Origin: Cupriavidus pauculus
GTDB taxonomy: Bacteria; Pseudomonadota; Gammaproteobacteria; Burkholderiales; Burkholderiaceae
Assembly (NCBI RefSeq): GCF_002858765.1
Contig: NZ_PJRP01000007.1
Location: forward strand, 1 to 64,000
Direction of reading: 5' to 3'
DNA length: 64,000 nucleotides
Both the position numbers and the translations under genes were made by a program. Positions within the stretch are counted from its first letter, which is position 1. Each line of letters opens with the position of its first letter. A model generated the notes under the pieces. The model was not told the origin of the DNA, did no database searches, and worked only from the letters and a program-made list of their open reading frames with translations. This document shows positions 17,110 to 52,203 of the stretch, one piece after another.

Positions 17110-17381
17110 CGGCCTGCAAGCCACTGGGGCAGCCTGAATGAGGGCTGCGTGACGTCCAGAACGAATCCAGAAAAGACATCGCCAGCGAATTGCTGACGGG
17201 CCGCCCCCAGTAAATCGGCTGTAGCGGCGTCCGCGCACAACTATGAGCCGCGCGCCCCGCCGATAAATTGCATATCGATCAAAGACCCGCGGCACTATCG
17301 ACATACGGTATTCGTACTTAGTCATACACCCGGCATTGGTTACGCTGAGAGACTCCTTCGTGAAGAACCTCAACTACAGTC

Positions 17382-18752
17382 ATGTCCCAACGCACCGGTC
17401 AATTAAGCCTGGGGGCCTTCCTCTATCCTTCCGGGCATCACATCGCCGCATGGCGGCATCCCGAAGCACAGGCCGACGGCGGCACGGACCTGCGCTTCTA
17501 TACTGACCTTGCCCGTGCGGCGGAAGCGGCAAAGTTTGACCTGATCTTCCTGGCCGACGGCGTCGGGACCCGCGGCGACAATGTCGAATTCCTCAGCCGG
17601 GTGGCACACAACTACCAAGCGCAATTCGAGCCGATCACCTTGCTATCGGCGTTATCGGTCGTTACAGAACGCATCGGACTGGTGGCCACGGCGTCGACGT
17701 CTTTCAACGAGCCGTATCACATCGCACGCAAGTTCGCTTCGCTCGACCACTTGTCCAGCGGCCGAGCTGGCTGGAACGTAGTCACCACTGGCAACGACCA
17801 CGAAGCGCGCAACTTCAACCGCGACGACAATTTGCTGCACGCCGATCGTTACGCGCGCGCCACCGAGTTCGTGGATGTGGTGGCGGGCCTGTGGGACAGC
17901 TGGGAAGACGATGCCTTCGTGCGCGACAAGTCAGCGGGCCTCTACTTCGAGCGCAACAAGCGGCACGTCCTGCATCACAAGGGCGAGCATTTTCAGGTGC
18001 GCGGGCCGCTCAATGTCTCGCGGCCGCCGCAGGGGCACCCGGTAGTAGTGCAGGCGGGGTCGTCCGAAGCCGGCAAAGAACTGGCCGCGCGCTGCGGCGA
18101 GGTTGTATTCACCGCGCAGCAAACGCTGGACGAAGCGGTCGCGTTCTATGCCGACCTGAAGTCGCGGCTCGCGCGCCATGGCCGCACGGCCGACGACCTC
18201 AAGATCATGCCTGGCGTGTTCCCGGTAGTGGGTGCCTCGGAAACCGAGGCACAGGAGAAATTCGAGCAGTTGCAGGCGCTGATCGATCCCGTAGTGGGGC
18301 TGACGCTCGTGTCCAACCTGACCGGCGGCTTCGACTTGTCCGCCTATCCGCTGGACGGCCCGATTCCAGACCTGCCTGAAACCAACGGCACGAAGAGCCG
18401 TCAGCGGCTAGTGGTGGATCTGGCCCGCCGCGAGAACCTGACAATCCGTCAACTCTACCAGCGTGTTGCCGGCGCGCGTGGTCATTGGCAACTGGTGGGC
18501 ACCGCAACACAGATCGCAGACCAGCTCGAAGAGCGGTTCCGGCACTATGGCGCGGACGGCTACAACATCATGGCACCGTTCCTGCCGGGTGGCTTGCACG
18601 ACTTTATCCGTTTGGTGCTACCAGAACTGCGTCGACGGGGCCTGTTCCGCACCGAATACACGGGCACGACGCTGCGCGACCACCTTGGCCTGAAGCGGCC
18701 ACCACACCCCGCAACTATCGCACCACAGCCGCCCGAGGCTGCCGCTGCCTGA
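17382..18752 (+). CDS. FMN-dependent monooxygenase, NtaA/SnaA/DszA type (LLM class)
   Basis: 456 aa, the size of the NtaA/DszA group of bacterial luciferase-like monooxygenases, which use reduced FMN from a separate reductase. Typical segments are SGHHIAAWRHPEA at the N-terminus, FDLIFLADG, ERIGLVATASTSFNEPYHIAR, GRAGWNVVTTGND and HPVVVQAGSSEAGKELAAR. Known members cleave C-N bonds (nitrilotriacetate) or C-S bonds (dibenzothiophene sulfone). With SsuD-like and sulfur-amino-acid genes next to it, a sulfone or sulfonate substrate is the best inference. It is the first gene of a plus-strand unit with 24 bases to the next gene. Confidence 0.92.
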   Translation: MSQRTGQLSLGAFLYPSGHHIAAWRHPEAQADGGTDLRFYTDLARAAEAAKFDLIFLADGVGTRGDNVEFLSRVAHNYQAQFEPITLLSALSVVTERIGLVATASTSFNEPYHIARKFASLDHLSSGRAGWNVVTTGNDHEARNFNRDDNLLHADRYARATEFVDVVAGLWDSWEDDAFVRDKSAGLYFERNKRHVLHHKGEHFQVRGPLNVSRPPQGHPVVVQAGSSEAGKELAARCGEVVFTAQQTLDEAVAFYADLKSRLARHGRTADDLKIMPGVFPVVGASETEAQEKFEQLQALIDPVVGLTLVSNLTGGFDLSAYPLDGPIPDLPETNGTKSRQRLVVDLARRENLTIRQLYQRVAGARGHWQLVGTATQIADQLEERFRHYGADGYNIMAPFLPGGLHDFIRLVLPELRRRGLFRTEYTGTTLRDHLGLKRPPHPATIAPQPPEAAAA

Positions 18753-18776
18753 CACCTCGCACACCGGAGACGAACA

Positions 18777-19889
18777 ATGCCTATCGAACTGTATGGGACC
18801 CTGTACCCGCGCCTGTTCTCGGAAGTGATCCCAGCAGAAGGCCCCGCCTTCGACACGGCACACATCGAGCAGCGTGCCGAGGAGCATGAAGCTGCGGATT
18901 TCGATGGGGTGCTGTTGCCGCACAACTCCGGCTGGGCCGACAACATCCTGACGACGGCCCGCGCCGCAGGTGTCACGAAGCGCTTGAAGTTCCTGTTGGC
19001 GCATCGACCGGGATTCATCTCTCCCACGCTCGCGGCCCGCAAGCTCGCCACGCTTGACCACTACACCGGTGGACGACTGCGCGTCCATATCATCACGGGC
19101 GGTCGGAATGCCGAGCAACGGCGCGACGGCGACTATCTCGAGCATGATGACCGTTACGCCCGCACCGACGAATACCTGGAGATCCTCCGCAACGTCTGGA
19201 CGAAGCGCGAACCGTTTAGTCACCACGGCACGCACTACCGCTTCGAGAACGCATTCTCCGAACTCAAGCCACTGCAGGCAGGCGGCATTCCCATTTCGTT
19301 CGGTGGCGCCTCGGCGCCTGCCATCGACGTTGCGGCCCGACGCGCCGACATCTTCGCGCTGTGGGGCGAATCGCTCGATGGTGCGCGGGAATTGACCGAC
19401 AGCGTGCGGGCCGCAGCGCGCCCGTTAGGTCGCCGTCCAACGTTCAGCATCTCCATTCGTGTGATTCTCGGCGCGACAGAGGACGAGGCATGGCAACGTG
19501 CGCGCGAGATCGAACACAAAACCCGGGAAGTAGGTCTCTGGAGTCCCGCCTCGCGCGTCTTCGGCGGCCACACGCCGCCCGCCAGCGCAGAGAACGAAGG
19601 CTCGCGTCGTCTGCTTCGTCAGGTGGCCCAAGGCGACGTGCTGGATCAACGGCTGTTCATGGGCGTGGCAAAGGCGACCAACGCCCCTGGCAATACGACC
19701 GCCATCGTCGGCACCGCGCCACAGGTGGCCGAATCCTTGCTGGAGTACTACCGCGCCGGCATCAGTGGCTTCCTGTTCCGCGGCTTTGATCCACGTTCGG
19801 ATGCCGTCGAGTTCGGGCGCGAGCTGATTCCATTGCTGCGCGAAGGTGCGCGCCAGATCGACGTGCAGCAGCAGGGCCACGCCGCCTGA
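18777..19889 (+). CDS. FMN-dependent alkanesulfonate monooxygenase-like protein (SsuD type)
   Basis: 370 aa. GGAG lies 7 bases before the ATG. The features follow SsuD: EAADFDGVLLPHNSGW, RLKFLLAHRPGFISPTLAAR, GGRLRVHIITGGRNAEQRRDG and GIPISFGGASAPAIDVAAR. SsuD-type enzymes use reduced FMN and oxygen to release sulfite from sulfonates. The first residues and the HDDRYARTDEYLE segment fit well. It is followed after 148 bases by a Bug receptor and then a second NtaA-type enzyme, suggesting one catabolic unit. A flavin reductase is not present in the window. Confidence 0.9.
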   Translation: MPIELYGTLYPRLFSEVIPAEGPAFDTAHIEQRAEEHEAADFDGVLLPHNSGWADNILTTARAAGVTKRLKFLLAHRPGFISPTLAARKLATLDHYTGGRLRVHIITGGRNAEQRRDGDYLEHDDRYARTDEYLEILRNVWTKREPFSHHGTHYRFENAFSELKPLQAGGIPISFGGASAPAIDVAARRADIFALWGESLDGARELTDSVRAAARPLGRRPTFSISIRVILGATEDEAWQRAREIEHKTREVGLWSPASRVFGGHTPPASAENEGSRRLLRQVAQGDVLDQRLFMGVAKATNAPGNTTAIVGTAPQVAESLLEYYRAGISGFLFRGFDPRSDAVEFGRELIPLLREGARQIDVQQQGHAA

Positions 19890-20037
19890 GGCAAGACGCC
19901 AGCTTCGCAATCCGCCCCGCTTATCACCTGAGCGGCTAACGACATGACGAATCGGCAGTTCCGGCCCCACGTGTATCGCCCTACGATGACCGGTCTGCCT
20001 CGTGCATCCATTTCTTCTTGCGCCCATCCGGACCGTC

Positions 20038-21027
20038 ATGCATTTCCCTTTTTTTTCCGCGCCCCTGCGCGCCGCGCTTGCAGCACTCGCGGTGCTCCAT
20101 GTCACCACCGCGCCGGCATCGGCCCAGCAACCCTTCCCGTCGAAGCCGATCAACTACGTAGTGCCCTACACGCCAGGCGGCACCAATGACAACGTCGCGC
20201 GGATCATCTCAAAGCGGCTGGCCGAGAAAGCTGGCCAGCCGGTGGTCATCGAGTACAAGGCCGGCGCGGGCGGCACGCTCGGCGCCGGCTTCGTGGCGGC
20301 ATCGCCGGCGGATGGTTACACGCTACTCAACACCTCCATCGGCAACCTGGCCATCGCGCCGCAGTTGATGACCGTGAAGTTCGATCCGTTCCACGACCTC
20401 GTGCCGGTCGCCTACATCGGTAACTCGCTGGCAACGGTCGCCATCAATCCGTCGCTGCCGATCCGGACGTTGCCGGAACTGATTGCCTACGCACGCGCTA
20501 ACCCCGGCAAGCTCACGTTTGCCAGTTCGGGGAACGGCACGCCCGGACATCTGGCAGGCGAACTGCTCAAGCGCCTGGCTGGCATCGACATTCGGCACGT
20601 GCCTTACAAAGGCAGTGCGCCGGCTGTGGCCGACGTGGTAGCCGGCCATGTGGATCTGGTGTTCGATCCACTCAGCACGCAGTTCATCAAGCAGGGCAAG
20701 CTGCGTGCGCTCGCCTATTTTGGCGGCGCACGTTCGCCGGACCTGCCGAACGTGCCGAGCATTCGTGATGCAGGCATCAAGAGCTGGGAAGACTCCCTGG
20801 CCGGCGCATTCTTCATCACCGCGCCGCGCAACGTGCCGCCGGAGGTGCTGGCAAAGCTGCGCCAGTGGATCGGCGAGATTCTGGCCGAACCAGACACCGT
20901 GGCCGCACTGAGCCGCGTGCAGGTCGACGTGCAGACCCTGACGGCCGAGCAGACGTCACAGCGCATCCGCCAAGTGCACGAAATTGCCGCGCGCGTGGTC
21001 AAGGACAGCACCGTGCAGGGCAACTGA
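20038..21027 (+). CDS. Bug/TctC-family periplasmic solute receptor (sulfur island)
   Basis: 329 aa from ATG 20038; a GTG at 20002 would add 12 residues before the signal peptide and is less likely. The signal peptide ends near residue 31 (PASA-QQ). Family segments include KPINYVVPYTPGGTNDNVAR, GAGGTLGAGFVAASPADGYT, SSGNGTPGHLAGELLKRLAG and HVPYKGSAPAVADVVAGHVD. It sits between LLM monooxygenases with only 12 bases to the next one, so it presumably delivers their substrate or a related organic acid. TctAB partners are missing locally. Confidence 0.92.
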   Translation: MHFPFFSAPLRAALAALAVLHVTTAPASAQQPFPSKPINYVVPYTPGGTNDNVARIISKRLAEKAGQPVVIEYKAGAGGTLGAGFVAASPADGYTLLNTSIGNLAIAPQLMTVKFDPFHDLVPVAYIGNSLATVAINPSLPIRTLPELIAYARANPGKLTFASSGNGTPGHLAGELLKRLAGIDIRHVPYKGSAPAVADVVAGHVDLVFDPLSTQFIKQGKLRALAYFGGARSPDLPNVPSIRDAGIKSWEDSLAGAFFITAPRNVPPEVLAKLRQWIGEILAEPDTVAALSRVQVDVQTLTAEQTSQRIRQVHEIAARVVKDSTVQGN

Positions 21028-21039
21028 GCGGCGGCAATC

Positions 21040-22320
21040 ATGAAACTTGGATTGTTCCTGCTCGCGGCCGGGCATCATGCGGCCGGCTGGCGATACCCGG
21101 GCGCCGAATCCGGCACCGAAAATATCGATCTGGTCGTGCGCATGACCCAAGCCGCCGAACGTGCAAAGTTCGACATGGTGTTCTTCGGCGACCGCCTGCT
21201 GACCTCAGCCGATGCCCATCCCTCGATGATCACGCGCCCCGACCCGCTGGCCATGCTGGCGGCACTATCGATGGTGACCACACGCGTCGGGCTGGCTGCC
21301 ACCGCATCGACTACGTATAGCGAGCCGTTCAACCTGGCGCGCACGCTGGCCACCGTAGACAAGCTGTCGCACGGCCGTGCCGGTTGGAACATCGTAACCA
21401 CCTTCGCGGACGGTTCGGTGAATTTCAGCCGCAATCGTCACCCCGACCACGCCGAACGCTACGCCATCGCAGAGGAGTTCGTTTCGGTCGTAAAGGGCCT
21501 CTGGCGTTCCTGGGATCCGGACCCATATGTCCAGGACAAGACGCGCGGCATCTATATCGACGTGGACAAAATGCACGCGCTGCACCATGAGGGCCGTCAT
21601 TTCTCCGTGGCAGGTCCGCTCAATGTCACGAACAGCGAACAGGGCCAGCCCGTGCTGATCCAGGCCGGTTCGTCGGGCCCCGGCCAGGCATTGGCCGCGC
21701 GCCATGCCGAGGTCGTGTTCACCGCGCAACAGGACCTCGACGCGGCGATCGAGTTTGCCACCGGCTTGCGCCGACAGGTGATTGAAGCGGGACGCGATCC
21801 GCGCCACTGCTTGATCATGCCTGGCCTGATGCCAATCATTGGCGCGACCGAGGCAGAAGCTCACGAGAAGCTCGCGCAACTGCAATCCTTTACCGACCAG
21901 TCGAATGCGCTCGCCATCCTGGGCGAGCAACTGGCCGTCGATGTATCCGGCTTCGCGCTCGATGCACCGCTGCCGCCGCTGCCGACCGATGTCGTCGTGC
22001 ACAGCCGCAGTGCGCTGCTGATCAAGCTCGCGCGCGAGCGAGCACTGACGCTTCGCCAGCTCTACCACCTGGTAGCCAGCGCCCGCGGCCATCAGATCGT
22101 GGTGGGCACGGCCGGTCAAGTGGCCAATCACATGATCGAATGGGTACGCGCCGGTGCCGCCGATGGCTTCAACATCATGCCGGCTTACTTTCCGGGTGGA
22201 TTCGAGGATTTCACGCGCGAGGTGGTTCCGATCTTGCAGGATCGTGGCGCGTTCCGGCGCAACTATGAGGGTCGCACCTTGCGCGAGCACCTTGAATTAC
22301 CGCTTCCGCAGGGAAGGTAA
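21040..22320 (+). CDS. FMN-dependent monooxygenase, NtaA/DszA type (second copy)
   Basis: 426 aa. It is paralogous to the 17382 product: AAGHHAAGWRYPGAE, FDMVFFGDR, TRVGLAATASTTYSEPFNLA, HGRAGWNIVTTFADG and GQPVLIQAGSSGPGQALAAR correspond segment by segment. The pair differs enough to expect different substrates. It lies 12 bases after the Bug receptor, at the end of this plus-strand unit, and is convergent with the PhnD-like gene (14 bases apart). It would need reduced FMN from an unlinked reductase. Confidence 0.92.
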   Translation: MKLGLFLLAAGHHAAGWRYPGAESGTENIDLVVRMTQAAERAKFDMVFFGDRLLTSADAHPSMITRPDPLAMLAALSMVTTRVGLAATASTTYSEPFNLARTLATVDKLSHGRAGWNIVTTFADGSVNFSRNRHPDHAERYAIAEEFVSVVKGLWRSWDPDPYVQDKTRGIYIDVDKMHALHHEGRHFSVAGPLNVTNSEQGQPVLIQAGSSGPGQALAARHAEVVFTAQQDLDAAIEFATGLRRQVIEAGRDPRHCLIMPGLMPIIGATEAEAHEKLAQLQSFTDQSNALAILGEQLAVDVSGFALDAPLPPLPTDVVVHSRSALLIKLARERALTLRQLYHLVASARGHQIVVGTAGQVANHMIEWVRAGAADGFNIMPAYFPGGFEDFTREVVPILQDRGAFRRNYEGRTLREHLELPLPQGR

Positions 22321-22334
22321 CGCTGAGCTGACCG

Positions 22335-23162
22335 TCAGCCCAGCTTCGCATAGCCCAGCCGGTGCGCGTCCAGCGCCATGGACGCAATCGGCAGATACGC
22401 TGCGGCAGTCGTCTGTACCACATCATCCATGTGAAGACGTGATCGCAGGCCGGCGTCCTCGCGCAGCGCTTCGCGCAACGCCGCGCGGACCTGCCTGACC
22501 AGCGACGACCGGGCGCGGCGCGACGCAATGAATGGCAGACCGGGCACTGCGCGCGTGACGCCGATCTGGCGGATTCCGGCGACCAACGCCGGGTGATGTT
22601 CGGCCGCAAACGCCAGGGTCACGCAATCGATTGCTGCGACGTCGGCCCGACCTTCACCGACCGCCGCCAGCGAAGCGAGATGCGAGCCGGTCAGCACCAC
22701 ATCCCCGAAGAAGTGTCCACCCCTAGCCAGCGGCGCAACCACATGCCGTAGCGCGTTCATGCCGCTATGTGAATCGGGTCCGTTGCACGCTGCGCGGGCG
22801 CCACGGCATGCCTCGATCGTCGCGGGCCCGTCCGCACAGCGTACAACGATGGCACTGCGATAGGTCTGCCGGTGGCAGCCCAATACAGCGAATCGCGGCG
22901 TGCCGATTATCCGGACATAGGGCGCCAACCCGTGCACTAGCGGGTATCCACAGGTCTGCGACAGCAGCAGGTCATCGCGACGCCAAAACGCGTGAAGCGC
23001 CTCTGGACCCTCGCCCGGATCAACGGCCGCGAGTGTCACCGACGACGGCACACGCCCCAGCAACTGGCCCACCCGGTCAATCAGCAACAACCAGTCTTCG
23101 CGCAACTGGGCGGACACGTTGTACATGGGCAGCGCCGCCACCCATCGCTCAGGTCTTGCCAT
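22335..23162 (-). CDS. PhnD-like phosphate/phosphonate-type binding-fold protein
   Basis: 275 aa from ATG 23162, with GGGGGA just upstream and 14 bases of overlap with the end of the desaturase gene. Typical segments are RRDDLLLSQTCGYPLVHGL, YRSAIVVRC, GRADVAAIDCVTLAFA and PGLPFIASR. The fold is that of PhnD-type periplasmic binding proteins, but no signal peptide is seen, so it may act in the cytoplasm or need a longer start. Ligands of this subgroup are unknown. The coupling to a fatty-acid desaturase is odd. Confidence 0.82.
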   Translation of the reverse strand: MARPERWVAALPMYNVSAQLREDWLLLIDRVGQLLGRVPSSVTLAAVDPGEGPEALHAFWRRDDLLLSQTCGYPLVHGLAPYVRIIGTPRFAVLGCHRQTYRSAIVVRCADGPATIEACRGARAACNGPDSHSGMNALRHVVAPLARGGHFFGDVVLTGSHLASLAAVGEGRADVAAIDCVTLAFAAEHHPALVAGIRQIGVTRAVPGLPFIASRRARSSLVRQVRAALREALREDAGLRSRLHMDDVVQTTAAAYLPIASMALDAHRLGYAKLG

Positions 23163-24138
23163 GTTCCCCCGATGCCTCGATACGAAGCTTGAGCATCCCG
23201 TCGAACCGCGGATGAACGACCGGTGCCACCGCGCGCCATGCATAACGGACCAGCCACTCACGGTAGCCCTGGACGAAGAAGCCATCGTTACGCGCCAGGT
23301 AGTCGTGCGCGCGCCGGCGATAGACCCAGGCCAGCGCAAACCACGGCACGCCCGGCAGATCGTGATGCACAAGGTGGTAGTTGTTGTTCAGAAACAGCAG
23401 GCGCCAACCCGGGCCGGCCTCATTGATGACGCTGCGCGATGCATCGGCTTCGGTGGCGCGATGCTCCTGGAAGGAACGGATCGCCGCCAGTGACAGCGCG
23501 GGATACGCCACGCCCGCCAGCATCAGCCATGCTGGCATGCCACAAGCGATCTGCAGCCATGCGAGCAACACCATCAGCGCGGCAAGATGGGCTGTCCACA
23601 CCGGCAGGTCGCGCCAGTCCCCCGCCCGGAAACGCCCCCCCGCATCGATCGCGATCGATGCGATGGAGAACGCCGGCTGCAGCAGGATGCGTCCCGCCAT
23701 CGTGTTGCGTGCCGCATAGAGCCGACGCAAGGCCCGCGGGGTGGCCTGCCATGCGTCTGCGTCGAGGAAGTAACTCTCGGGGTCGGCATAGGGATGCGTA
23801 AGTTCGGCCTCATGGTGCTGCAGATGCGTCCGACGGTACAGCGCATAGGGCCGCCATACGCCCAGCGGCGCGGCGCCAAGTAGCGCGTTCAGCCATGGCA
23901 GGCGGGTCGGATGCCCGTGAAGCAATTCATGCTGCAGCGACAGGTACCACGTGGTGCACAACGTGAGCAGTACACACGCCAGCGGCAGTCCGAGCTCGCG
24001 AACGTGGATCGCCACGCCGAACCAGGACGCGTACACGGCGGCGACCAATACCCAGGTCGGCAACTCGGTGCGCCACAGCCAATGACGGGCTGCGTGCGCA
24101 AGTTCGTTGCGCTGCTGATCGTCGAGATAAGTGGTCAT
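23149..24138 (-). CDS. Membrane fatty-acid desaturase family protein
   Basis: 329 aa from ATG 24138 (MTTYLDDQQRNEL); the open frame extends upstream, but that part is arginine-rich. All three histidine boxes of membrane di-iron desaturases are present: HELLHGH at residues 70-76, HLQHH at 105-109, and YHLVHH near residue 265. Hydrophobic segments flank them. It would desaturate or hydroxylate an acyl chain or a related lipid in the inner membrane. It is translationally coupled to the PhnD-like gene and divergent from the 41-aa membrane peptide at 24366. Its role inside a sulfur-compound island is unexplained. Confidence 0.9.
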   Translation of the reverse strand: MTTYLDDQQRNELAHAARHWLWRTELPTWVLVAAVYASWFGVAIHVRELGLPLACVLLTLCTTWYLSLQHELLHGHPTRLPWLNALLGAAPLGVWRPYALYRRTHLQHHEAELTHPYADPESYFLDADAWQATPRALRRLYAARNTMAGRILLQPAFSIASIAIDAGGRFRAGDWRDLPVWTAHLAALMVLLAWLQIACGMPAWLMLAGVAYPALSLAAIRSFQEHRATEADASRSVINEAGPGWRLLFLNNNYHLVHHDLPGVPWFALAWVYRRRAHDYLARNDGFFVQGYREWLVRYAWRAVAPVVHPRFDGMLKLRIEASGEHGKT

Positions 24139-24365
24139 CGGTCGGCGGATTCGTGGCGGTGTGATACGAAGCCGCAGCATACGGGCGGCAGTGCACGCTC
24201 CGGAACGAACGATTGCCGATAACGATATGCACCCCGCCGGCTTCGCGTCACACGCGCTTGCTACGCACGACATCAAGCGGATTTGCTTAGTCGGAAACCT
24301 TCGTTGACGCGACAGGGACCGTGGTCCACAAGATGAAGCATCAACAAGCACGGGAGATCCTTGCC

Positions 24366-24491
24366 ATGACCGATCTGCTTGACTGGTTCACGGCCATTTG
24401 CGCTGTGGCCCTGGTGTACGCCGCGCTGCGCCATCCGCTTTACCCGCCCTACAAGGAGGGCGAACAGTCAGATCGACCGCCACGAGGTTGA
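24366..24491 (+). CDS. Very small single-span membrane protein (41 aa)
   Basis: The frame MTDLLDWFTAICAVALVYAA continues LRHPLYPPYKEGEQ and ends at TGA 24489-24491. GGGAGA lies about 8 bases upstream of the ATG. The N-terminal half is a single hydrophobic helix; the C-terminal half is proline-rich and charged, so the peptide probably spans the inner membrane once. The function is unknown. It could be a subunit of the desaturase encoded divergently, or of the nearby transporters. Composition and the ribosome site make it more credible than a chance frame. Confidence 0.5.
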   Translation: MTDLLDWFTAICAVALVYAALRHPLYPPYKEGEQSDRPPRG

Positions 24492-24639
24492 CCGCGCAAG
24501 TCCAGCGCGCATATCGAAGTACGAAAAGATTTGTTCGTATCGGACGCCGCACTCCATAAGCTGATTGATCCGCGACATTGCTTGACTGCATGCCGACATC
24601 GTGTCGGCGGGCGTGTCCGGACTCATCCCTGCATTCATC

Positions 24640-25635: not shown

Positions 25636-25731
25636 CTGCCGCGACGTCGTAGTTCTTCCCTCAATTCTGCCCTCGCTGTGCAGCGATGCCCTTGCAGGCA
25701 TCGGCTGCTGGGCCCTTACGACTTAATCTTT

Positions 25732-26556: not shown

Positions 26557-26566
26557 GGAGCGCACG

Positions 26567-28701: not shown

Positions 28702-29432
28702 TCGACGCCTGGATCGCCATGCTCAAGCCGTTCGGCCTGAACTATGCGTTCGTTCTCGATAACACCGAACGTACCGCCTTTCTTCATGGACTGTTCGTCA
28801 CGCTACAACTGTGCGCGCTGACGATACCGTGCAGCCTGCTGGCCGGCGTCATCCTGGCGGCGCTGCTCACGTCCGGCAAGGCGGCCTTGGCCACGTCGGC
28901 GCGCGCATTCGTCGAACTGACCCGTAACACCCCCACGCTGGTGCAACTCTATTGCGGATTTCTCGTGCTGAACATGCTGATCACGCAGCATCTGAACACC
29001 CTCGGCACCGGCAATCCACTGACGCCATTCTTCTGGGTAGTGGCCGTTGTCTCGCTGCACAAGGCCGTGTTTCATGCCGAGGCCCTGCGCGCGGGCATTG
29101 AGGCCGTGCCGCGCGTCACGCTGGAAGCCGGGCGCTCGCTAGGGTTCTCGCGCCGGCAGTTGCTGCTGCAGGTGGAATTGCCGCTGGCCGTCCGTTTCGC
29201 GCTGCCAGCGTTGGTCAACAACCTTGTCGACTTGGTCAAGATGACTGCCGTGGCGTCGGCGATCGCCGTGGGTGACGTCACGTACGAATCCATCATGATC
29301 TGGACCCAGCGCGACAACGTGCTGGAGCTGCTGCTGTTGATCCTGGCGTTCTTCGGCGTGCTGACCTGGCTGGTCAGCCGCACGGGCCGCTGGCTGGAAC
29401 TGCGCTTAAGGATGCCCGGCTATGGCCAGTAA
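28698..29432 (+). CDS. Amino-acid ABC transporter permease (HisM/GlnP type)
   Basis: 244 aa with about five hydrophobic spans. The polar amino-acid permease signature is seen as ARAFVELTRNTPTLVQLYCG in the first half, and the EAA-type loop EALRAGIEAVPRVTLEAGRS contacts the ATPase. It pairs with the permease at 29422 and is translationally coupled to the aminotransferase (4-nt overlap) and to the second permease (11-nt overlap). Confidence 0.93.
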   Translation: MIDAWIAMLKPFGLNYAFVLDNTERTAFLHGLFVTLQLCALTIPCSLLAGVILAALLTSGKAALATSARAFVELTRNTPTLVQLYCGFLVLNMLITQHLNTLGTGNPLTPFFWVVAVVSLHKAVFHAEALRAGIEAVPRVTLEAGRSLGFSRRQLLLQVELPLAVRFALPALVNNLVDLVKMTAVASAIAVGDVTYESIMIWTQRDNVLELLLLILAFFGVLTWLVSRTGRWLELRLRMPGYGQ

Positions 29433-30234
29433 CCCGCTTGCCCTGCCCTGGCGCGCCGCGCCGCGCCCCGTCAGGTACGCCCTTACCAGCCCTTGGGCGC
29501 TGGCCGCGTTGTGCGGGCTTGCCGTCGTCGGCTTCTGGACTGCCACTGGCAGCACTCCGGCTGCGTTCCGCAACCTGTGGACATGGTCGCCCGCGCTGCT
29601 GCGCGGCATGTGGGCCAATATCGAGATCAGTATCCTTGCGATGGCTCTCGGCACGGTGGCCGGCCTGGTGATCGGCGCGTTGTCGCTGTCCACCCACCGC
29701 TCGATACGCTACCTAGCACGGCTGTGGGTACAGGCGTTCCGCAACGCCCCAATCCTGGTGCTGGTGTACTTCACCACCTATGTGTTCCCGTTCGAGCTTC
29801 ACATTGCCCAGTGGACCGTTCCGTTCCCGGATTGGATCAAGGTCGTGCTGGGCCTGGCGCTACCCGCAAGCGCCAACGTGGCCGAAATATTCCGGGGCGC
29901 GATCCAGTCGATCCCAAGCGCGCAATGGGAGGCCGCGCAGTCGCTGGCATTCCGCCGCAGCCAGATTTTCCGGCTTATCGTGCTGCCGCAGTGCCTGCGG
30001 CGCATGTTGCCGCCCTGGATGAACCTATACGCCAGCATCACGATGAGCACGTCGCTGGCCTCGCTGGTTGGCGTGCACGACGTGGTCGATACCGCCCAGG
30101 TGGCCAGCAACACCGTGGCCCGCACCGATTTCACGGTGCTGGTCTATTTCATGCTGCTGGCCCTGTTCTTTGCCTATTGCTATCCAATCGCGCGCGCCAC
30201 GCGTGCGCTGGAGCGTCGTCATGACCGCCACTGA
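29422..30234 (+). CDS. Amino-acid ABC transporter permease (HisQ/GlnP type)
   Basis: 270 aa. The N-terminus (about 35 residues) is longer than in the partner permease, and then the membrane domain begins. Signature segments are RLWVQAFRNAPILVLVYFTT and the EAA-type loop AEIFRGAIQSIPSAQWEAAQ. It forms the heterodimeric channel with the 28698 product in the inner membrane. The stop overlaps the ATPase start by 14 nt. Confidence 0.93.
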   Translation: MASNPLALPWRAAPRPVRYALTSPWALAALCGLAVVGFWTATGSTPAAFRNLWTWSPALLRGMWANIEISILAMALGTVAGLVIGALSLSTHRSIRYLARLWVQAFRNAPILVLVYFTTYVFPFELHIAQWTVPFPDWIKVVLGLALPASANVAEIFRGAIQSIPSAQWEAAQSLAFRRSQIFRLIVLPQCLRRMLPPWMNLYASITMSTSLASLVGVHDVVDTAQVASNTVARTDFTVLVYFMLLALFFAYCYPIARATRALERRHDRH

Positions 30235-31087
30235 TTCCTTTCTGCGCAACCGCCAGATACAAGCGCCCACCGATCCGTCCTTCAGACCACTCGTTGCGCT
30301 GCACGACGTCCACCTGACCTTCGGCGACAACACCGTGCTCAGGGGCATCGACGTCGAGGTGCGACGCGGCGAGGCGGTGACCATTATCGGGCCGTCCGGG
30401 TCGGGAAAAAGCACGATCCTGCGCTGCATCACCGGCCTGCTGCGCCCGCAGCGGGGACAGATCCGCGTTGGTGACACCGCCGTGGATGCGCTGCGCACCG
30501 AGGACGAACTGATTGCGCTGCGTAAGCGCGTCGGCTTCGTCTTCCAGCAGTACAACCTGTTTCCGCACCTGACGGTATTGGAGAACCTGGTCATCGCACC
30601 CACGCGCGTGATCGGCCGCAACCGGCGCGAAGCCGAACAAGAAGCCCATGCGCTGCTGGGCAAAGTGCGACTGTCCGACAAGGCGCACGCCTATCCGGGC
30701 GAACTGTCGGGCGGCCAGCAGCAACGCGTGGCGATTGCCCGCGCGCTGGCAATGCGGCCCGAACTTATCCTGTTCGACGAGGTGACGTCGGCGCTCGACC
30801 CCGAAACGGTCGGCGAGGTCCTGACTGTCATCCGCGAACTCGTGGAAGACGGCATGACGTGCGTGCTGGTGACCCATGAAATGCGCTTTGCGGCCGAGAT
30901 CAGCGATCACATCTATTTCACCGAAGCCGGCCGCATCGTCGAGCATGGGCCGCCCGAGCAAATCTTCGGCAACCCCAGCCACGAGCGCACACGAGCGTTC
31001 CTGCGCCGGGCCCTCGGCGCCATTCCGCGCCTGCCGGCCGAATTCAACGCCGCGTTCGCACCGGCACCTGCCACCACCGAAGACTGA
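30221..31087 (+). CDS. Amino-acid ABC transporter ATPase
   Basis: 288 aa from ATG 30221 (MTATDSFLRN); the open frame upstream overlaps the permease and was discarded. Walker A is GPSGSGKST at residues 57-65, the Q loop is FVFQQYNLFP, the ABC signature LSGGQQQR, Walker B LILFDEVTSALD and the switch His VTHE. It energises import by the permease pair. The N-terminus has about 20 extra residues and the C-terminus about 20 more beyond the usual GlnQ length. Confidence 0.95.
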   Translation: MTATDSFLRNRQIQAPTDPSFRPLVALHDVHLTFGDNTVLRGIDVEVRRGEAVTIIGPSGSGKSTILRCITGLLRPQRGQIRVGDTAVDALRTEDELIALRKRVGFVFQQYNLFPHLTVLENLVIAPTRVIGRNRREAEQEAHALLGKVRLSDKAHAYPGELSGGQQQRVAIARALAMRPELILFDEVTSALDPETVGEVLTVIRELVEDGMTCVLVTHEMRFAAEISDHIYFTEAGRIVEHGPPEQIFGNPSHERTRAFLRRALGAIPRLPAEFNAAFAPAPATTED

Positions 31088-31099
31088 CAAGGACCACCG

Positions 31100-32299
31100 A
31101 TGAGCCAAAATCCCACGGACGGCATCCACACGCGGCTGCTCCATGCCGGAGGCGTGAGCCTGCGAGACGGTGTCGGCCCCGTCAACGTACCGGTGGTGCG
31201 CACCAGCACTGTCCGCTTCGAGGATGTCGAGACCCTGGCTGACCGTCATCACCGCCGCTCGCACGGCGAACGGATCGCCACCTACGGTCGCCACGGGCTT
31301 GATACCCATGAAGCACTTGAAGACGCGCTATGCACGCTGGAGGGCGGGCATCGTGCATTCTTGGCGCCATCCGGGTTGTCGGCGATCACGCTGGTGCTGC
31401 TGGCACTGCTCGGCCCCGGCGATCATGCGCTGGTCTCCGACACGGTCTACGCGCCGCTGCGCCGGGTCGACCAGACACTGCTGCAGCGCCTGGGGGTGGA
31501 GGTGCAGTATTTCTCGCCCGCACACGACGATCTCGATGCATTGATCCGCGCCAGTACGCGGCTCGTGTACCTCGAGTCGCCGGGCTCACTGCTGTTCGAC
31601 GTCCTCGATCTGCCCGCGCTGACCGCCATTGCACGCGCGAAAGGGGTTCCCGTAGCCATCGACAACACGTGGAGTGGTGGCTGGTTCCTGCAGCCGTTGC
31701 AGCTAGGAGCGAATATCTCGATCCAGGCGGCGACCAAATACATCGCCGGGCATTCCGACGTGATGCAAGGCGCCGTCGTGGTCGACAGTCCGGCTCTGGC
31801 AGGACGCATCGCCACCGCACACGAAGCGCTGGGCCTGACCATTGGCGCCGATGACGCCTACCTGGCATTGCGCGGGCTGCGCACCCTGCCCGTACGGCTG
31901 GCGCAGCACCAGCGCAACGCCACCGAGGTTGCGCAATGGCTGCAGCAACAGCCCCAAGTGGCCCGCACCTTTTACCCCGCGCTGCCCGAAGATCCCGGCC
32001 ACGTGCTCTGGAAACGCGATTTCACCGGTGCGAGCGGATTGGTGTCGTTCGCACTCCGGGACGGTAACCACAGCGTTGCCGGCCGTCTGGTCAATGCCTT
32101 GCGGCTATTCTCCATTGGCGCGTCGTGGGGTGGCTATGAGAGCCTGGCGCTGGTCGCGCCTCCCGAGCGGCTCAATGCATCCAGAACGTGGCAGGAAAGC
32201 GGTAAAAACGCCCCGGTCATCCGGCTGCATGTCGGACTGGAAGATCCACGTGACCTGATCGCGGACCTGCGGCAAGCCTTTCAACGCACCATCGCCTGA
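31100..32299 (+). CDS. Cystathionine beta-lyase-type PLP enzyme (Cys/Met metabolism family)
   Basis: 399 aa. Trans-sulfuration family marks: the cofactor-contacting YGRHGLDTHEALEDAL, LESPGSLLFDVLD, AIDNTWSGGWFLQP, and the PLP lysine K213 in AATKYIAGHSDVMQG. Its pattern resembles bacterial cystathionine beta-lyase, which cleaves C-S bonds of cystathionine and other S-substituted cysteines to a thiol, pyruvate and ammonia. Placed 12 bases after the ABC ATPase, it is the best clue that the transporter imports an S-substituted cysteine or similar compound. The annotation as metC itself is not justified. Confidence 0.9.
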   Translation: MSQNPTDGIHTRLLHAGGVSLRDGVGPVNVPVVRTSTVRFEDVETLADRHHRRSHGERIATYGRHGLDTHEALEDALCTLEGGHRAFLAPSGLSAITLVLLALLGPGDHALVSDTVYAPLRRVDQTLLQRLGVEVQYFSPAHDDLDALIRASTRLVYLESPGSLLFDVLDLPALTAIARAKGVPVAIDNTWSGGWFLQPLQLGANISIQAATKYIAGHSDVMQGAVVVDSPALAGRIATAHEALGLTIGADDAYLALRGLRTLPVRLAQHQRNATEVAQWLQQQPQVARTFYPALPEDPGHVLWKRDFTGASGLVSFALRDGNHSVAGRLVNALRLFSIGASWGGYESLALVAPPERLNASRTWQESGKNAPVIRLHVGLEDPRDLIADLRQAFQRTIA

Positions 32300-32306
32300 G
32301 GCAACC

Positions 32307-33731
32307 ATGAGCGACATCGACCAATTCGCGCGGGACACGCTTCGGCTTCTTGGCCCCGCCCCTGACAACTGGGTGCCGCAACGCGACGGCATTGACCACA
32401 ACGTCGTGGTCGTGGGTGGCGGCCAAGGTGGCTCCGCCATTGCCCACGCACTGCGGCGTGCCGGCATTGGCGGTGTTTCCGTGATCGACGCTGCGGCGGA
32501 TTCATCCGGCGCAGGCGTCTGGCTGACCCGCGCACGCATGCAGAAGCTGCGCACGCTCAAATCGCTGGTGGGACCGGAACTTGGTATCACGGCGCTGGGA
32601 TTCCAGCAATGGTTCGAAACGCGTCACGGCCGGGACGCCTTCGCGGCACTGGACCGCATTTCACGCGCCGACTGGGCCGAATATCTCGCCTGGTTCCGCG
32701 AATTCCTTGCTATCGACGTACGCTATGGCACACGCGTGGTCGACATCGCCCCGTGGGACGCCGCCGGGATACCGGGCCTGCGGCTCACCGTGGAAGTTGA
32801 CGGTAAACGGCGCTTCGAGACAACACGCAAGCTGATTCTGGCCAATGGTGTGGCCGGCAACGGCGCGCCATTTGTGCCCGGCTATCTGCAGGCAGCGGTG
32901 CAGGCGGGCCTGGCCGCCCATACCGCAGATGCCATAGACTTTGTGGCGTTGCGCGGGAAGACTGTTGCGGTGATCGGTGCGGCCGCTTCGGCCTTCGACG
33001 CTGCCGCCGTAGCATTGGAAGCGGGTGCGCAGGCGGTGAGCCTATTCTCGCGGCGCGACCATATTGCAGCGCGGGCCGTGGCCAAGCCTCGCATGTATTC
33101 CGGCTTCTTCGAGAACTACGCCAGCCTGTCCGATGCGCAGCGCTGGCAGCACGCGGTGCGCTACCGTCGCGCCGGCTCGACGCCTCCTGCCGATGCCGTC
33201 AAGCGCGCCACCGCTCACGCGAACTTCCGCCTGCATCTGTCTTCGCCGTGGCAAGCCGCCACGTTGCGCGACGGCGCTGTTGACGCTCACGTGGCCGGCC
33301 GCACGTTTGCGTTCGACTTCGTGATCGCCGGCACCGGCTACACCACCGACCCGGCGGACCGCGCCGAACTGGCCAGCATCGCGCCGCTAATCGCGCGCTG
33401 GCGTGATCGTTATGAGCCGCTACCGGGCGAACGGGACGACGCGCTTGGCGTCTCGCCCTACTTGGGCGCTGGTCTCGAATACACGGAGAAGCATCGCGGT
33501 GCCGCGCCTTGGCTTGGCGCAATTCACGTGTTCAATCCCGCTGGCTATGCAAGCACTGGCGTCCCGCTGGGAGATATCCCGAGCATGCGGCGCGACATCC
33601 CGCGGATTGTGTCGCGCGTGAGCCAGGATCTGTTCGTGGCCGACCTGGAATTGCACCAGGCACGCGCGCTCGCCGACGTGGCACCTGATTTTGGCTCCGA
33701 ACTGTACGACCATGCCGTCTGGCGGGGCTGA
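32307..33731 (+). CDS. FAD-dependent NAD(P)-binding monooxygenase-like protein
   Basis: 474 aa. The FAD Rossmann motif VVVVGGGQGGSAIAHALRRAG begins at about residue 33, and a second dinucleotide site (VAVIGAAASAFDAAAVALEAG) lies near residue 215, the layout of flavin-containing monooxygenases. A typical C-terminal segment is IHVFNPAGYASTGVPLGD. It starts 7 bases after the lyase and is the last gene of the operon. It could oxidise the sulfur of a thiol or thioether. A terminator hairpin follows at 33739-33766. Confidence 0.87.
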   Translation: MSDIDQFARDTLRLLGPAPDNWVPQRDGIDHNVVVVGGGQGGSAIAHALRRAGIGGVSVIDAAADSSGAGVWLTRARMQKLRTLKSLVGPELGITALGFQQWFETRHGRDAFAALDRISRADWAEYLAWFREFLAIDVRYGTRVVDIAPWDAAGIPGLRLTVEVDGKRRFETTRKLILANGVAGNGAPFVPGYLQAAVQAGLAAHTADAIDFVALRGKTVAVIGAAASAFDAAAVALEAGAQAVSLFSRRDHIAARAVAKPRMYSGFFENYASLSDAQRWQHAVRYRRAGSTPPADAVKRATAHANFRLHLSSPWQAATLRDGAVDAHVAGRTFAFDFVIAGTGYTTDPADRAELASIAPLIARWRDRYEPLPGERDDALGVSPYLGAGLEYTEKHRGAAPWLGAIHVFNPAGYASTGVPLGDIPSMRRDIPRIVSRVSQDLFVADLELHQARALADVAPDFGSELYDHAVWRG

Positions 33732-33738
33732 ATGAAAC

Positions 33739-33766
33739 AAGGGGGCACCTGAACCGCCCCCCTTTT
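33739..33766. terminator. Intrinsic terminator after the sulfur operon
   Basis: GGGGGC (33741-33746) pairs with GCCCCC (33756-33761) around a 9-base loop, followed by CTTTT. An AA before the stem gives some T-run on the minus strand too, so it may serve both the monooxygenase-like gene and the convergent dioxygenase-rhodanese gene. Confidence 0.65.
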
Positions 33767-33792
33767 CGTCTCAACCTTCGCTGACGTTCGAC

Positions 33793-36027
33793 TCAGCCTG
33801 CAGTTTCCGTCGCGCCGATGAGCCGGATGCCAATATCGCCTTCGCGTCCAAGCTGCTCCACGAGATTGATCTCCCAATCAAGATACGCCTGGAAACCAGC
33901 ATTGCGTTGGGCCACGTCGGCGTGCTGATACGGGCTGAACCAGTAGTCGTCGTCACCGGTCAGCACTCGCTCACCGCCGGTTTCTACGGGCAGCCCTGCA
34001 GCCACCCATGCTTGCGTACCACCGTTCACGAAACGGGCCTCGCGGCCAGTGCGCGCCGCCAGCTCTGCGGCCACCACGCGCGCAAGCACGCCATCCGACG
34101 AGGTGATCAGGATGGCTTGCTCTACCGGCGTGTCGGCAATCAGCGCTTCCAGCCGGTCCGGCACGGCAAAGTACGCGCCCGCAGCATGACGCTTTTCGTA
34201 GGCGGATCTTCGCTCCACGTCAAACAGCCTTGCAATGCCGGCCGCCAGTCGCTGTGAGGCCTGTTGCGCCGACACTGCCGCTGCTGCGGGACGCGATGCC
34301 AGCACGCGCACCGGCTCCGGGCCTGTCACTAGGCCCGCATCGGCGGGCGGGGCGTAGACAAAGACTTCATGGCTGCCAAGCTGGGCCAGCCACGCTGCCG
34401 TCGTCAACGCGCGCACGCCGTCGAAGTCGGCCAACACGATGCGCGCACGGCGCGTGGCCAGGTATTCGTCGGTCGCCTGCACCAATTGTCCGCCCGGTGC
34501 CCAGCGCCAGCCGGGCAGGTGACCCGATTCATACTCGCTGCGGGTGCGTACGTCGAAGTGGTACAACGTCCGCGTCTGCGATGCGGCCTCCAGTTGTTCA
34601 AGGCCGGCGGCGTTGATCCTGCGTACGCCCGCCTGCGCCGCCACGCGCTCGGCGCGAGCACGGGCACCATCGAGCGCTGCAGCCGAGGGCTCCGGCAGCG
34701 GCGTCACACGCCCTCGTGCCAGTGTCCGGCCAGACAGCAGCCAGGCCATGGTGCCGTCCTTCAGCGATGCCACCGGGTTAGGAATACCCGCATCGATCAG
34801 TGTCTGTGCACCCACAATGCTGCGCGTGCGACCGGCGCAATTGACCACCACGAGCGTGTCGGGATTCGGTGCCAGCTCAGCGATCCGATAGACCAGCTCA
34901 GCGCCCGGCAAGCTATGCGCAAACGGAAGACTGAAGTCGGCAAACTCCTCGGTAGTGCGGCTGTCCACCACGACAATGTCTTCGCCATTTTCGATACGGC
35001 GGTGCAGTTCGTCCGCGTCGATCCAGGGCGTATGTTTCTCGTGTTCGATGATCTCGCCGAACGCCTTGCTGGGCACGTTGCTGCCCGTGAACAGTTCATT
35101 GCCTGCCGCCACCCACGCCGCAACGCCGCCTTCGAGCACCGACACGTTGCCCCAGCCCAGGCGCACCAGCTTTGCCGCGGCCTGATGCGCGAGCGCGTCG
35201 GCATTGTCACCACCGTCGAGCAGCACGATGCGCGTGTCGCGCCTTGGCACCAGACGGTCGATCAGCAGTTCCAGGCGCCACAACGGCGCGGAGGCCGCCA
35301 GCAGCGGATGGCCTTTGGTATAAACGCCGGTTTCGCGAACATCGAGAAGCGCAATTTCCTGCCCGTCGGCCAGCGCCGCCTTAAGCGCTGAGGCCCCGAT
35401 GACCGGCGCCGCCAGCCGGCGCGGCGGGCCAAAGTGGCGGTACGTCCCGCCGGACTTGCCTTCGAAGACCACGCGGCCCGCCAGCCGGTCCAGCGCGAGC
35501 CCATAGAAGTGCAAATGCAGCCCGTTCTCCTCGCCAATTAGTTCGATCGTGTGCACGTCGTCCGGCAGCAACGTCACCGAGGTGCCTGCTACGACATCGA
35601 ACTCTTCAATCTCGCGCAGCGTGTCGCGCGCCGGATCGGCGGTCCGCTCACGCGCGTAGAAGTTGTTCCGCTCGCGGCCGGTGATGCCGGCAATGATCGC
35701 CCAGGTGGTGTGGTCGTGCGGTGGCTGGGCCTTGCCTGGAAGCCCGGCCGACACATACAGCGCAAACCTGCCGTCGAGATCCTCGGCCAGCCGGTAGACC
35801 TGTGCGGGATTGCTGGCCGACACCGGGAAATGGACGTCCGGAAACAACTCGCGCTGCTGGCCGAGCGCTTCGAGCGCTCGGGCAATCGGCTCGAGCGTGG
35901 TCTTTTCAGTCACTGCGCCATTGCCAAGCTGGCGACGGATTTCGGAGATGAATGCGGCCACGGCTTGGTGGCGACGGCTGGCGATGTCGGATCCTGCTGC
36001 GCCAGACAGGGGAGAAGAAGCGGTCAT
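33793..36027 (-). CDS. Cysteine-dioxygenase-like cupin fused to four rhodanese domains
   Basis: 744 aa from ATG 36027 (MTASSPLSGAAG). The upstream open frame contains a LysR relic and is not part of it. Residues 1-200 are a thiol dioxygenase cupin: PPHDHTTWAIIAGITG supplies His104 and His106, and DDVHTIE supplies His159, matching the three-histidine iron site. Then come about four rhodanese modules, starting near residues 208, 335, 485 and 625. Only the second keeps the catalytic cysteine (C397 in VVVNCAGRTRSIVG); the others have Asp, Asp and Ser at the equivalent loop. It would oxidise a small thiol to a sulfinate and handle persulfide sulfur in the cytoplasm. Convergent with the sulfur operon and probably part of its function. 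Confidence 0.88.
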   Translation of the reverse strand: MTASSPLSGAAGSDIASRRHQAVAAFISEIRRQLGNGAVTEKTTLEPIARALEALGQQRELFPDVHFPVSASNPAQVYRLAEDLDGRFALYVSAGLPGKAQPPHDHTTWAIIAGITGRERNNFYARERTADPARDTLREIEEFDVVAGTSVTLLPDDVHTIELIGEENGLHLHFYGLALDRLAGRVVFEGKSGGTYRHFGPPRRLAAPVIGASALKAALADGQEIALLDVRETGVYTKGHPLLAASAPLWRLELLIDRLVPRRDTRIVLLDGGDNADALAHQAAAKLVRLGWGNVSVLEGGVAAWVAAGNELFTGSNVPSKAFGEIIEHEKHTPWIDADELHRRIENGEDIVVVDSRTTEEFADFSLPFAHSLPGAELVYRIAELAPNPDTLVVVNCAGRTRSIVGAQTLIDAGIPNPVASLKDGTMAWLLSGRTLARGRVTPLPEPSAAALDGARARAERVAAQAGVRRINAAGLEQLEAASQTRTLYHFDVRTRSEYESGHLPGWRWAPGGQLVQATDEYLATRRARIVLADFDGVRALTTAAWLAQLGSHEVFVYAPPADAGLVTGPEPVRVLASRPAAAAVSAQQASQRLAAGIARLFDVERRSAYEKRHAAGAYFAVPDRLEALIADTPVEQAILITSSDGVLARVVAAELAARTGREARFVNGGTQAWVAAGLPVETGGERVLTGDDDYWFSPYQHADVAQRNAGFQAYLDWEINLVEQLGREGDIGIRLIGATETAG

Positions 36028-36138
36028 GTCAAATGCCCGAAGGGTCGGATGGGACAAGCTACTGACTCTAGGGCCTACCGCGTACACAAGGAACGAACAA
36101 ACACGCACATGGTTATGCGTAAATGCCCCCCTCCCGTT

Positions 36139-41840: not shown

Positions 41841-41849
41841 GGCATCCCC

Positions 41850-43033: not shown

Positions 43034-43051
43034 CAAACGAACGAGACGGCC

Positions 43052-50844: not shown

Positions 50845-50880
50845 TGCGGCAACCGCCACGTGAACCATACAGGTGACATG

Positions 50881-52170: not shown

Positions 52171-52203
52171 GGCGAAAGCAGACAAACACCGACGGAGCGC
52201 ACG

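Follow-up and report, generated by a model that had tools for sequence, protein, structure and literature searches.

The 64,000-nucleotide stretch analysed here (the window), positions 1 to 64,000 of contig NZ_PJRP01000007.1 of Cupriavidus pauculus, carries at approximately 17270–36125 a block of 16 genes on both strands. The best explanation that we can offer for this block is that it scavenges sulfur from S-substituted cysteines (cysteine S-conjugates), a reading that we consider probable. The analysis showed which genes are present, how they are conserved and linked, that the block ends are shared although the surroundings are unrelated, and which active-site residues occur; all of the substrates and reactions proposed below are what we infer. 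The original prediction, made from the letters of this DNA, had stated that it knew of no described pathway with exactly this gene set. This proved too strong, as the core of the block is a diverged form of a locus type that has been partly described around the mercaptosuccinate dioxygenase (Msdo) gene msdo (PMC5373536; this and the other papers are cited from the accessible parts of their text), and the block thus extends a partly described pathway.

A conserved block with shared ends in unrelated surroundings

The original prediction had proposed an organosulfur island at 17382–36027. Open reading frames and family matches bore out every gene class that it named, and its outer coordinates were exact; its gene list had left out a PhnD-like/desaturase-like pair (22335–24138). 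The left end of the block starts with GCATATCGA in the promoter region of LLM_A (17270–17381, plus strand; five-genome alignment). On the same strand follow LLM_A, an NtaA/DmoA-family FMN monooxygenase of the luciferase-like monooxygenase (LLM) type (17382–18752; TIGR03860, 594 bits against a cut-off of 279.7), an LLM enzyme previously called SsuD-type that is better termed SsuD-like (18777–19889; SsuD model 201 bits, far below the cut-off of 518), the TctC/Bug periplasmic receptor Bug1 (20002–21027; PF03401, 206 bits) and LLM_B, a further NtaA/DmoA-family monooxygenase (21040–22320; TIGR03860, 527 bits against 279.7). All three monooxygenases have the Bac_luciferase fold. This run is split from a second plus-strand run by the overlapping minus-strand genes for the PhnD-like substrate-binding protein (22335–23162; PF12974, 62 bits) and the fatty-acid-desaturase-like protein (23149–24138; PF00487, 101 bits; top NCBIfam match far short of its cut-off), both with starts picked by trimming; the pair is present in 4 of 5 block copies.

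The second run comprises Bug2, another TctC/Bug receptor (24601–25635; PF03401, 226 bits), the family-3 amino-acid-type receptors SBPa (25678–26556; PF00497) and SBPb (26567–27445; PF00497), the class I/II aminotransferase AAT (27442–28701; PF00155, 236 bits; PRK06107, 522 bits, short of its cut-off of 617), the PAAT-type permeases PermA (28698–29432) and PermB (29422–30234; both PF00528 and above cut-off for TIGR01726), an ATPase (30221–31087, start picked by trimming; PF00005; the L-cystine TcyN model PRK11264 at 300 bits, below its cut-off of 406), CBL, a cystathionine-beta-lyase-type C–S beta-lyase (31100–32299), and an FMO-like FAD/NAD(P) protein with an ornithine N-hydroxylase fold (32307–33731). 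CBL scores 394.6 bits with TIGR01324 against a cut-off of 365.9, which places it in the cystathionine beta-lyase family, and matches MetC structures at approximately 308 bits. On the minus strand lies a fusion of an Msdo-family thiol dioxygenase with four rhodanese domains (33793–36027), and the right end is formed by the region upstream of it (36028–36125, minus strand; GCATAACCAT at 36109–36118 in the five-genome alignment). At 9 of the 11 uninterrupted same-strand junctions the genes overlap or lie at most 24 bp apart, the other two gaps being 112 and approximately 42 bp, with some of the gene starts behind these counts picked by trimming; this agrees with the earlier statement that most genes are joined by overlaps or short gaps. 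G+C content is 0.631–0.665 in the nine 2-kb intervals from 18001 to 36000, and in the 23 other intervals it is 0.570–0.625 in 19 and 0.639–0.654 in four.

We compared the window by blastn with four relatives: Ralstonia sp. 25mfcol4.1 (L001/G112), C. pauculus 19C6 (L002/G002), Cupriavidus sp. U2 (L003/G003) and G136, a member of the window’s genus. Collinear similarity to all four begins at 17266–17272 and ends at 36118–36125, with DNA identity of 80–85% over the longer pieces and 78% over one 441-bp end piece. In the five-genome alignment conservation opens at GCATATC on the left and ends just past GGTTATGC on the right. Between the flanks of any pair of the five genomes there was no left–left or right–right match longer than 150 bp at E 1e-10, the left flank available for C. 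pauculus 19C6 being 548 bp; three left-versus-right cross matches between relatives were found (215–277 bp, 70–83%). The G136 block is shortened, lacking the equivalents of 18753–24277 and 32302–33636, and keeps both ends. Conserved synteny in relatives, on which the original prediction hinged, was found, and with the block collinear in Cupriavidus and Ralstonia relatives and the flanks unrelated, the clustering of its genes exceeds chance. Carriage in the family is sporadic: the fusion domain exceeded 300 bits in 4 of 150 genomes (the window’s own, G112, G136 and G143), and G143 (locus L116) has another arrangement that holds both a standalone dioxygenase and a fusion. It is fairly probable that the block is a horizontally spread cassette for scavenging sulfur from S-substituted cysteines.

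A transposon at the block ends was considered and rejected, with no tRNA in the window (ARAGORN), no mobility gene among the 16 block genes scanned and ends that are promoter regions; target-site duplication was not tested. Because both ends fall in promoter regions, they may mark functional limits and not the ends of a mobile element. A 33-bp intergenic element upstream of Bug2 (24509–24541, plus strand) is identical in the five aligned genomes, contains a TACGAA/TTCGTA inverted repeat and is single-copy in the genome when up to 3 mismatches are allowed. The 9-mer GCATATCGA has two copies in the window, at 17270 and 24509, both in block promoters; as a regulator box it was left as weak, since 11 of 100 shuffles held as many copies.

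Msdo-family dioxygenases are linked to a beta-lyase and an amino-acid transporter

A family-level search gave 41 Msdo-family matches above 80 bits in 150 genomes; 39 loci cover 40 of these, the window being the remaining one. The next 20 weaker thiol-dioxygenase matches in the list served as controls, with G079 skipped. At a threshold of at least 300 bits, CBL was present in 37 of the 39 Msdo-family loci and in none of the 20 controls; L125, which runs off its contig end, and L122, which does not, were the loci without it. These rows are not independent, in that L117 duplicates L001 (same coordinates) and several genomes supply two loci. A PAAT transporter was found in 30/39 Msdo-family loci versus 0/20 controls (control L164 has PAAT-like genes below threshold), a PAAT transporter or Bug receptor in 36/39, with Bug alone in 4/20 controls, and a rhodanese in 35/39 versus 12/20. 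The SsuD-like LLM showed the reverse distribution, occurring in 1/39 Msdo-family loci (L117, the copy of the block) versus 13/20 controls, with homologues 46–55% identical to the window’s protein, and in 12/12 of the control loci (20 kb each) that have a rhodanese gene. The window block is therefore unusual in holding both the CBL and the SsuD-like linkages. At L154, L158, L160–L167, L170 and L173 the SsuD-like LLM, 50–55% identical to the window’s, lies beside an SxHxY dioxygenase and a four-rhodanese gene.

An order-level search returned 31 matches, of which 3 were in the earlier set and 20 loci were compared (G385, G299, G373, G289:C23, G156, G159, G419 and G326 were left out). In this sample CBL was found in 4/5 loci of the type with Arg at the dioxygenase position described below, 1/5 fusion loci and 0/10 NxHxY loci. 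The fusion locus with CBL is that of G289, from another family of the order, where the genes run on one strand as Bug2–SBPa–SBPb–AAT–PermA–PermB–ATPase–CBL–regulator–fusion. The gene between CBL and the fusion, at distances of 481 and 115 bp respectively, encodes a CysB-family regulator (454 bits, cut-off 402), which suggests control by sulfur supply, although we give this little weight. Gene order varies elsewhere. The Caballeronia locus L052 runs ATPase, dioxygenase, CBL, four-rhodanese protein and SBP, so that dioxygenase and rhodanese are separate genes flanking CBL, and the C. lacunae locus L048 runs SBPs, GlcD-like oxidase, AAT, permeases, ATPase, standalone dioxygenase, CBL and an FMO-like gene. 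The window’s own genome has a second, Arg-type Msdo-family locus on contig C23 (L115; G000:C23:123001-143000, 9.8–18.8 kb) with a LysR gene, the Msdo-family gene, rhodanese, Bug, CBL, an AstE/AspA-type deacylase, a second Bug and a BisC-like S-oxide reductase (917 bits, below the cut-off of 1018). The deacylase and the reductase occur together in 5/39 Msdo-family loci, all from the window’s genus (L115, L119, L127, L152 and L153), and in 0/20 controls; such a pair would fit N-acylated conjugate sulfoxides.

This linkage has a precedent. In Advenella mimigardefordensis DPN7, msdo, whose function was established by a deletion and an enzyme assay, lies in a cluster with a cystathionine beta-lyase, a rhodanese and a PAAT transporter, and in Variovorax paradoxus B4 with a cystathionine beta-lyase and a rhodanese (PMC5373536). 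The proposal that the island serves organosulfur uptake and breakdown is thus supported in part, by the Msdo-family/beta-lyase/PAAT linkage, by the CysB-family regulator in G289 and by the Advenella and Variovorax loci.

The fusion is a diverged Msdo-family protein

Residues 1–202 of the fusion match the mercaptosuccinate dioxygenase 8VNI at 112 bits, 3-mercaptopropionate dioxygenase (3MDO) at 30 bits and cysteine dioxygenase (CDO) type I at 21 bits. The original prediction had taken this domain for a CDO, an identity ruled out by the scores and by an HxHxY motif with no equivalent of Arg60; it belongs to the Msdo family instead. The rest of the protein matches the four-rhodanese protein 1YT8 at 410 bits, with four PF00581 stretches. 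By eye, a CxGRTR loop, which we take to be the catalytic rhodanese motif, is present in the translation of only one of the rhodanese domains.

We aligned 88 rows of the thiol dioxygenase family, including reference fragments of 8VNI and Pa3MDO, and sorted them by motif and by the residue at a position that, judging by spacing, we take to be that of CDO Arg60 and 3MDO Gln62. HxHxY with Arg is found in 45 rows, including 8VNI, which their frame lengths and gene order mark as standalone; CBL of at least 280 bits lies in 41 of the 44 that have a locus, the others being L122, L125 and L180. HxHxY with Val, Ile or Leu is the class of 12 fusion rows (CBL in 8, including the duplicate pair L001/L117). 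SxHxY with Gln takes in the 20 control rows and Pa3MDO (CBL in 0/20 loci), and NxHxY with Leu takes in 10 rows (CBL in none). At the loci of this last class (L181, L182, L184, L186–L190, L192 and L193), a four-rhodanese gene was present in 8/10.

The window fusion has the three iron-binding His and the HxHxY motif, as in 8VNI. An Arg aligned with 3MDO Arg168 is kept in 88/88 rows, and in 3MDO this residue binds the substrate carboxylate (PMC8050391). Filing the domain directly as Msdo was rejected on account of the missing Arg at the CDO-Arg60 position, which we propose as a putative Msdo-defining residue, and it was filed as an Msdo-family paralogue. As the Arg of its 45 standalone relatives is absent, its thiol is probably not mercaptosuccinate itself: Msdo proper may hold a dicarboxylate by two arginines, and the fusion may accept a thiol that carries a single carboxylate. 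Compensation by another Arg, two positions further along (VYR), is possible, and the one-carboxylate reading is therefore a lead and no proof. On these residues, a monocarboxylic S-(carboxyalkyl)cysteine would fit better as the substrate than S-(2-succino)cysteine. A monocarboxylic sulfinate would be more stable than sulfinosuccinate, which would explain the SsuD-like enzyme in the block.

A proposed route for S-substituted cysteines

In the route that we propose, the family-3 receptors and the PAAT-type transporter would import an S-substituted cysteine, and CBL would split it by beta-elimination into pyruvate, ammonia and a mercapto-carboxylic acid. With O2, the Msdo-family dioxygenase domain would then convert this thiol to a sulfinate, from which sulfite for cysteine synthesis would arise, and the rhodanese part of the fusion would handle sulfane sulfur or sulfite. 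Import of a sulfur amino acid or of a sulfone or sulfonate had been suggested earlier. An S-substituted cysteine is the better supported of these; for a sulfone or sulfonate, no SsuABC- or NMT1-type model matched any of the 16 block genes, the only complete transporter being of the amino-acid type. The removal of sulfur in stages that had also been suggested drew no support from these results as far as the LLM enzymes are concerned. SBPa keeps an Asp aligned with that of AncQR, which presumably binds the alpha-amino group, and SBPb carries Ile there. AAT and SBPb co-occur in the window, L001 (= L117), L002, L003, L118, L048, L175 and L179 and are both absent in L116; only approximately 0.5 kb upstream of Bug2 is covered in L175, so LLM genes are possible there. 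The Ile of SBPb, and the presence of AAT in every block or cluster that holds a close SBPb, suggest SBPb as a possible entry point for a keto- or hydroxy-acid form, which would then be aminated, whereby AAT and SBPb would probably admit this form of the conjugate to the same route.

For the remaining enzymes, the SsuD-like protein probably acts on a sulfinate or sulfonate that is stable by itself and releases its sulfite, and an accessory arm for oxidative C–S cleavage like that of CmoO and CmoJ is probably made up of LLM_A, LLM_B and the FMO-like protein. The nearest solved relatives are 7E36_B and YtnJ (1TVL), at 398 and 374 bits, for LLM_A, and 3SDO and YtnJ for LLM_B; we take YtnJ to be CmoJ. 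The AlphaFold model of the FMO-like protein (pLDDT 90.3) has PvdA (3S5W) as its top Foldseek match, at E 4.5e-22, a fold that points to N-hydroxylating monooxygenases, with S-oxygenation only one option. Its homologues range from Cupriavidus to Nostoc and Mycobacterium; assigning a function from neighbours was set aside, as an LLM gene lay in 30 of 80 fetched loci and the remainder were mixed. Homologues 56–60% identical occur in cyanobacteria (Nostoc, Scytonema, Tolypothrix and others; L009–L012, L014, L015, L017 and L019–L031), where some adjoin an LLM gene and an amidohydrolase.

Several points weigh against this route. The substrates of the block proteins are predicted, as are the roles of the LLM enzymes, AAT and the FMO-like protein. 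The window fusion has Val where 45/45 standalone HxHxY rows carry Arg, so the Advenella precedent is not directly transferable. CBL is missing from the surroundings of four of the 12 fusion rows (L174 and L176–L178, with L174 and L176 near contig ends), and Bug receptors do not discriminate, being present in 9/39 Msdo-family loci and 4/20 controls. The G136 block is without the SsuD-like, Bug1, LLM_B, PhnD/desaturase and FMO-like genes, and in L048 and L052 the FMO-like gene is broken into two frames (at approximately 10.0–11.4 kb in each), through either gene decay or sequencing error; these genes are thus dispensable, and other roles are possible for them. AAT occurs without SBPb in L130. 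Finally, a Pfam scan found neither a regulator nor a flavin reductase among the 16 block genes.

Comparison with known systems

The block shares with the msdo loci of Advenella and Variovorax an Msdo-family dioxygenase, CBL and a rhodanese and, with Advenella, a PAAT ABC transporter. It differs in that dioxygenase and rhodanese are fused, with Val for the Arg of the standalone relatives, and in adding AAT, a second family-3 receptor, Bug receptors, three LLM enzymes and the FMO-like protein. It also has no LysR gene among its 16 genes, one lying outside at 15130–15999. The Bacillus subtilis Scm (yxe) and Cmo/ytn systems resemble it in an ABC importer (yxe) and in C–S-cleaving LLM enzymes related to LLM_A and LLM_B (PMC12757645, PMC9706529, PMC10863075), a relation that rests on the comparison with YtnJ and not with YxeK. 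In the Cmo system, CmoO forms a sulfoxide that is cleaved by CmoJ, which is homologous to both YxeK and DszA (PMC10863075), and known routes for S-(2-succino)cysteine consist of acetylation, cleavage by ScmK or 2SL, and deacetylation (PMC9706529, PMC12757645). Whereas these systems acetylate, cleave and deacetylate to regain cysteine, the block has a pyridoxal-phosphate (PLP) beta-lyase instead; no Pfam match to an N-acetyltransferase or N-acetylcysteine deacetylase was found in its 16 genes, although such genes could lie elsewhere in the genome.

With the 3mdo-tst pair (3MDO and a PA2603-type sulfurtransferase; PMC12947264) the block shares a thiol dioxygenase beside a four-rhodanese protein, the Arg168 equivalent and an SsuD-like LLM, as in all 12 rhodanese-bearing control loci. 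It differs in having HxHxY and not SxHxY, Val and not Gln at the CDO-Arg60 position, and CBL. With SsuEADCB it shares one SsuD-like enzyme that reaches less than half of its model’s cut-off, and there is no SsuA, SsuB, SsuC or SsuE among the 16 genes.

Alternative explanations

The alternative that survives best, though we think it rather unlikely, is that S-(2-succino)cysteine, formed from fumarate and cysteine, is the one specific substrate. The beta-lyase would then release mercaptosuccinate, and the dioxygenase would yield sulfinosuccinate, which breaks down to succinate and sulfite (PMC5373536). Consistent with this, the Advenella Msdo, whose gene shares its cluster with those for a beta-lyase and a PAAT transporter, has a KM of 0.2 mM for mercaptosuccinate, CBL accompanies nearly all of the Arg-type dioxygenases (the 41 of 44 loci above), and the window’s transporter proteins are 79–87% identical to those of the Arg-type clusters L048, L116 and L179. 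The window dioxygenase lacks the Arg, however, mercaptosuccinate is a predicted product of the beta-lyase, and the known routes acetylate first (PMC12757645), whereas no acetyltransferase match was found in the 16 block genes.

It is improbable that the block serves sulfonate or sulfone scavenging, in which Bug and family-3 receptors would import, LLM enzymes would desulfonate and the PLP enzymes would be passengers. In its favour are the three LLM enzymes, one of them SsuD-like, and the LLM genes at 30/80 loci of the FMO-like family; yet no SsuABC-type transporter or SsuE match was found in the 16 block genes, the SsuD-like protein falls far short of the SsuD cut-off, and the G136 block has the transporter, CBL and fusion but neither the SsuD-like protein nor LLM_B. 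We find equally doubtful a plain assimilation of cystine or cystathionine, in which TcyN-like import and CBL would feed methionine synthesis and the dioxygenase and rhodanese would detoxify excess thiol. The top models are indeed an L-cystine transporter ATPase and cystathionine beta-lyase, but the substrate-named transporter models seen were all below their cut-offs, and the genome has two more CBL-type enzymes of at least 44% identity, one of them (C34) on a contig with no Msdo-family match. This alternative also leaves unexplained why CBL goes with Msdo-family dioxygenases and not with those of the SxHxY type. That the block is a set of separate modules which only chance and a recent common origin have kept side by side is very improbable, for although the modules are separable, two inner segments being absent in G136, the block ends at the same points in five genomes with unrelated flanks and the CBL/PAAT/dioxygenase linkage recurs in other families.

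Other features of the window

The window opens at the first base of its contig (C36), and an elongation factor EF-G frame at 96–1874 (plus strand) runs from its first start codon without the N-terminal part. Beyond the block are an arsenic-type set at 40267–44245 (a low-molecular-weight phosphatase-like protein, an SBF-family transporter, an ArsC-family protein, an FMN reductase and an MFS protein), an autotransporter-type protein at 45534–48416 (minus strand) and an outer-membrane/HlyD/MFS efflux set at 49366–53763 (plus strand).

Implications for cysteine S-conjugate metabolism

Mercaptosuccinate is of interest as a polythioester precursor, and the section on the msdo locus in PMC5373536 assigns no role to its beta-lyase or transporter. 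The linkage found here gives both a role beside msdo and suggests cysteine S-conjugates, perhaps including the fumarate-damage product S-(2-succino)cysteine, as natural substrates. More tentatively, it is possible that the Msdo-type loci and the diverged cassette represent a further route for fumarate-damaged or S-(carboxyalkyl)ated cysteine, by beta-elimination without acetylation and a thiol dioxygenase that leads to sulfite. In the literature searched we found no work joining 2-succino compounds with mercaptosuccinate, and of those that mention mercaptosuccinate together with cystathionine, PMC5373536 was by its title the only one on this subject; most subscription papers lay outside this coverage, and we do not claim absence from print. 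If such a further S-(carboxyalkyl)cysteine route exists, mercaptosuccinate would have a natural origin, and dioxygenases that use dicarboxylates would be told from those that use monocarboxylates by a single residue at the CDO-Arg60 position, Arg or aliphatic. The block is also an example of a complete gene set for uptake and cleavage that stays together at unrelated places in Cupriavidus genomes.

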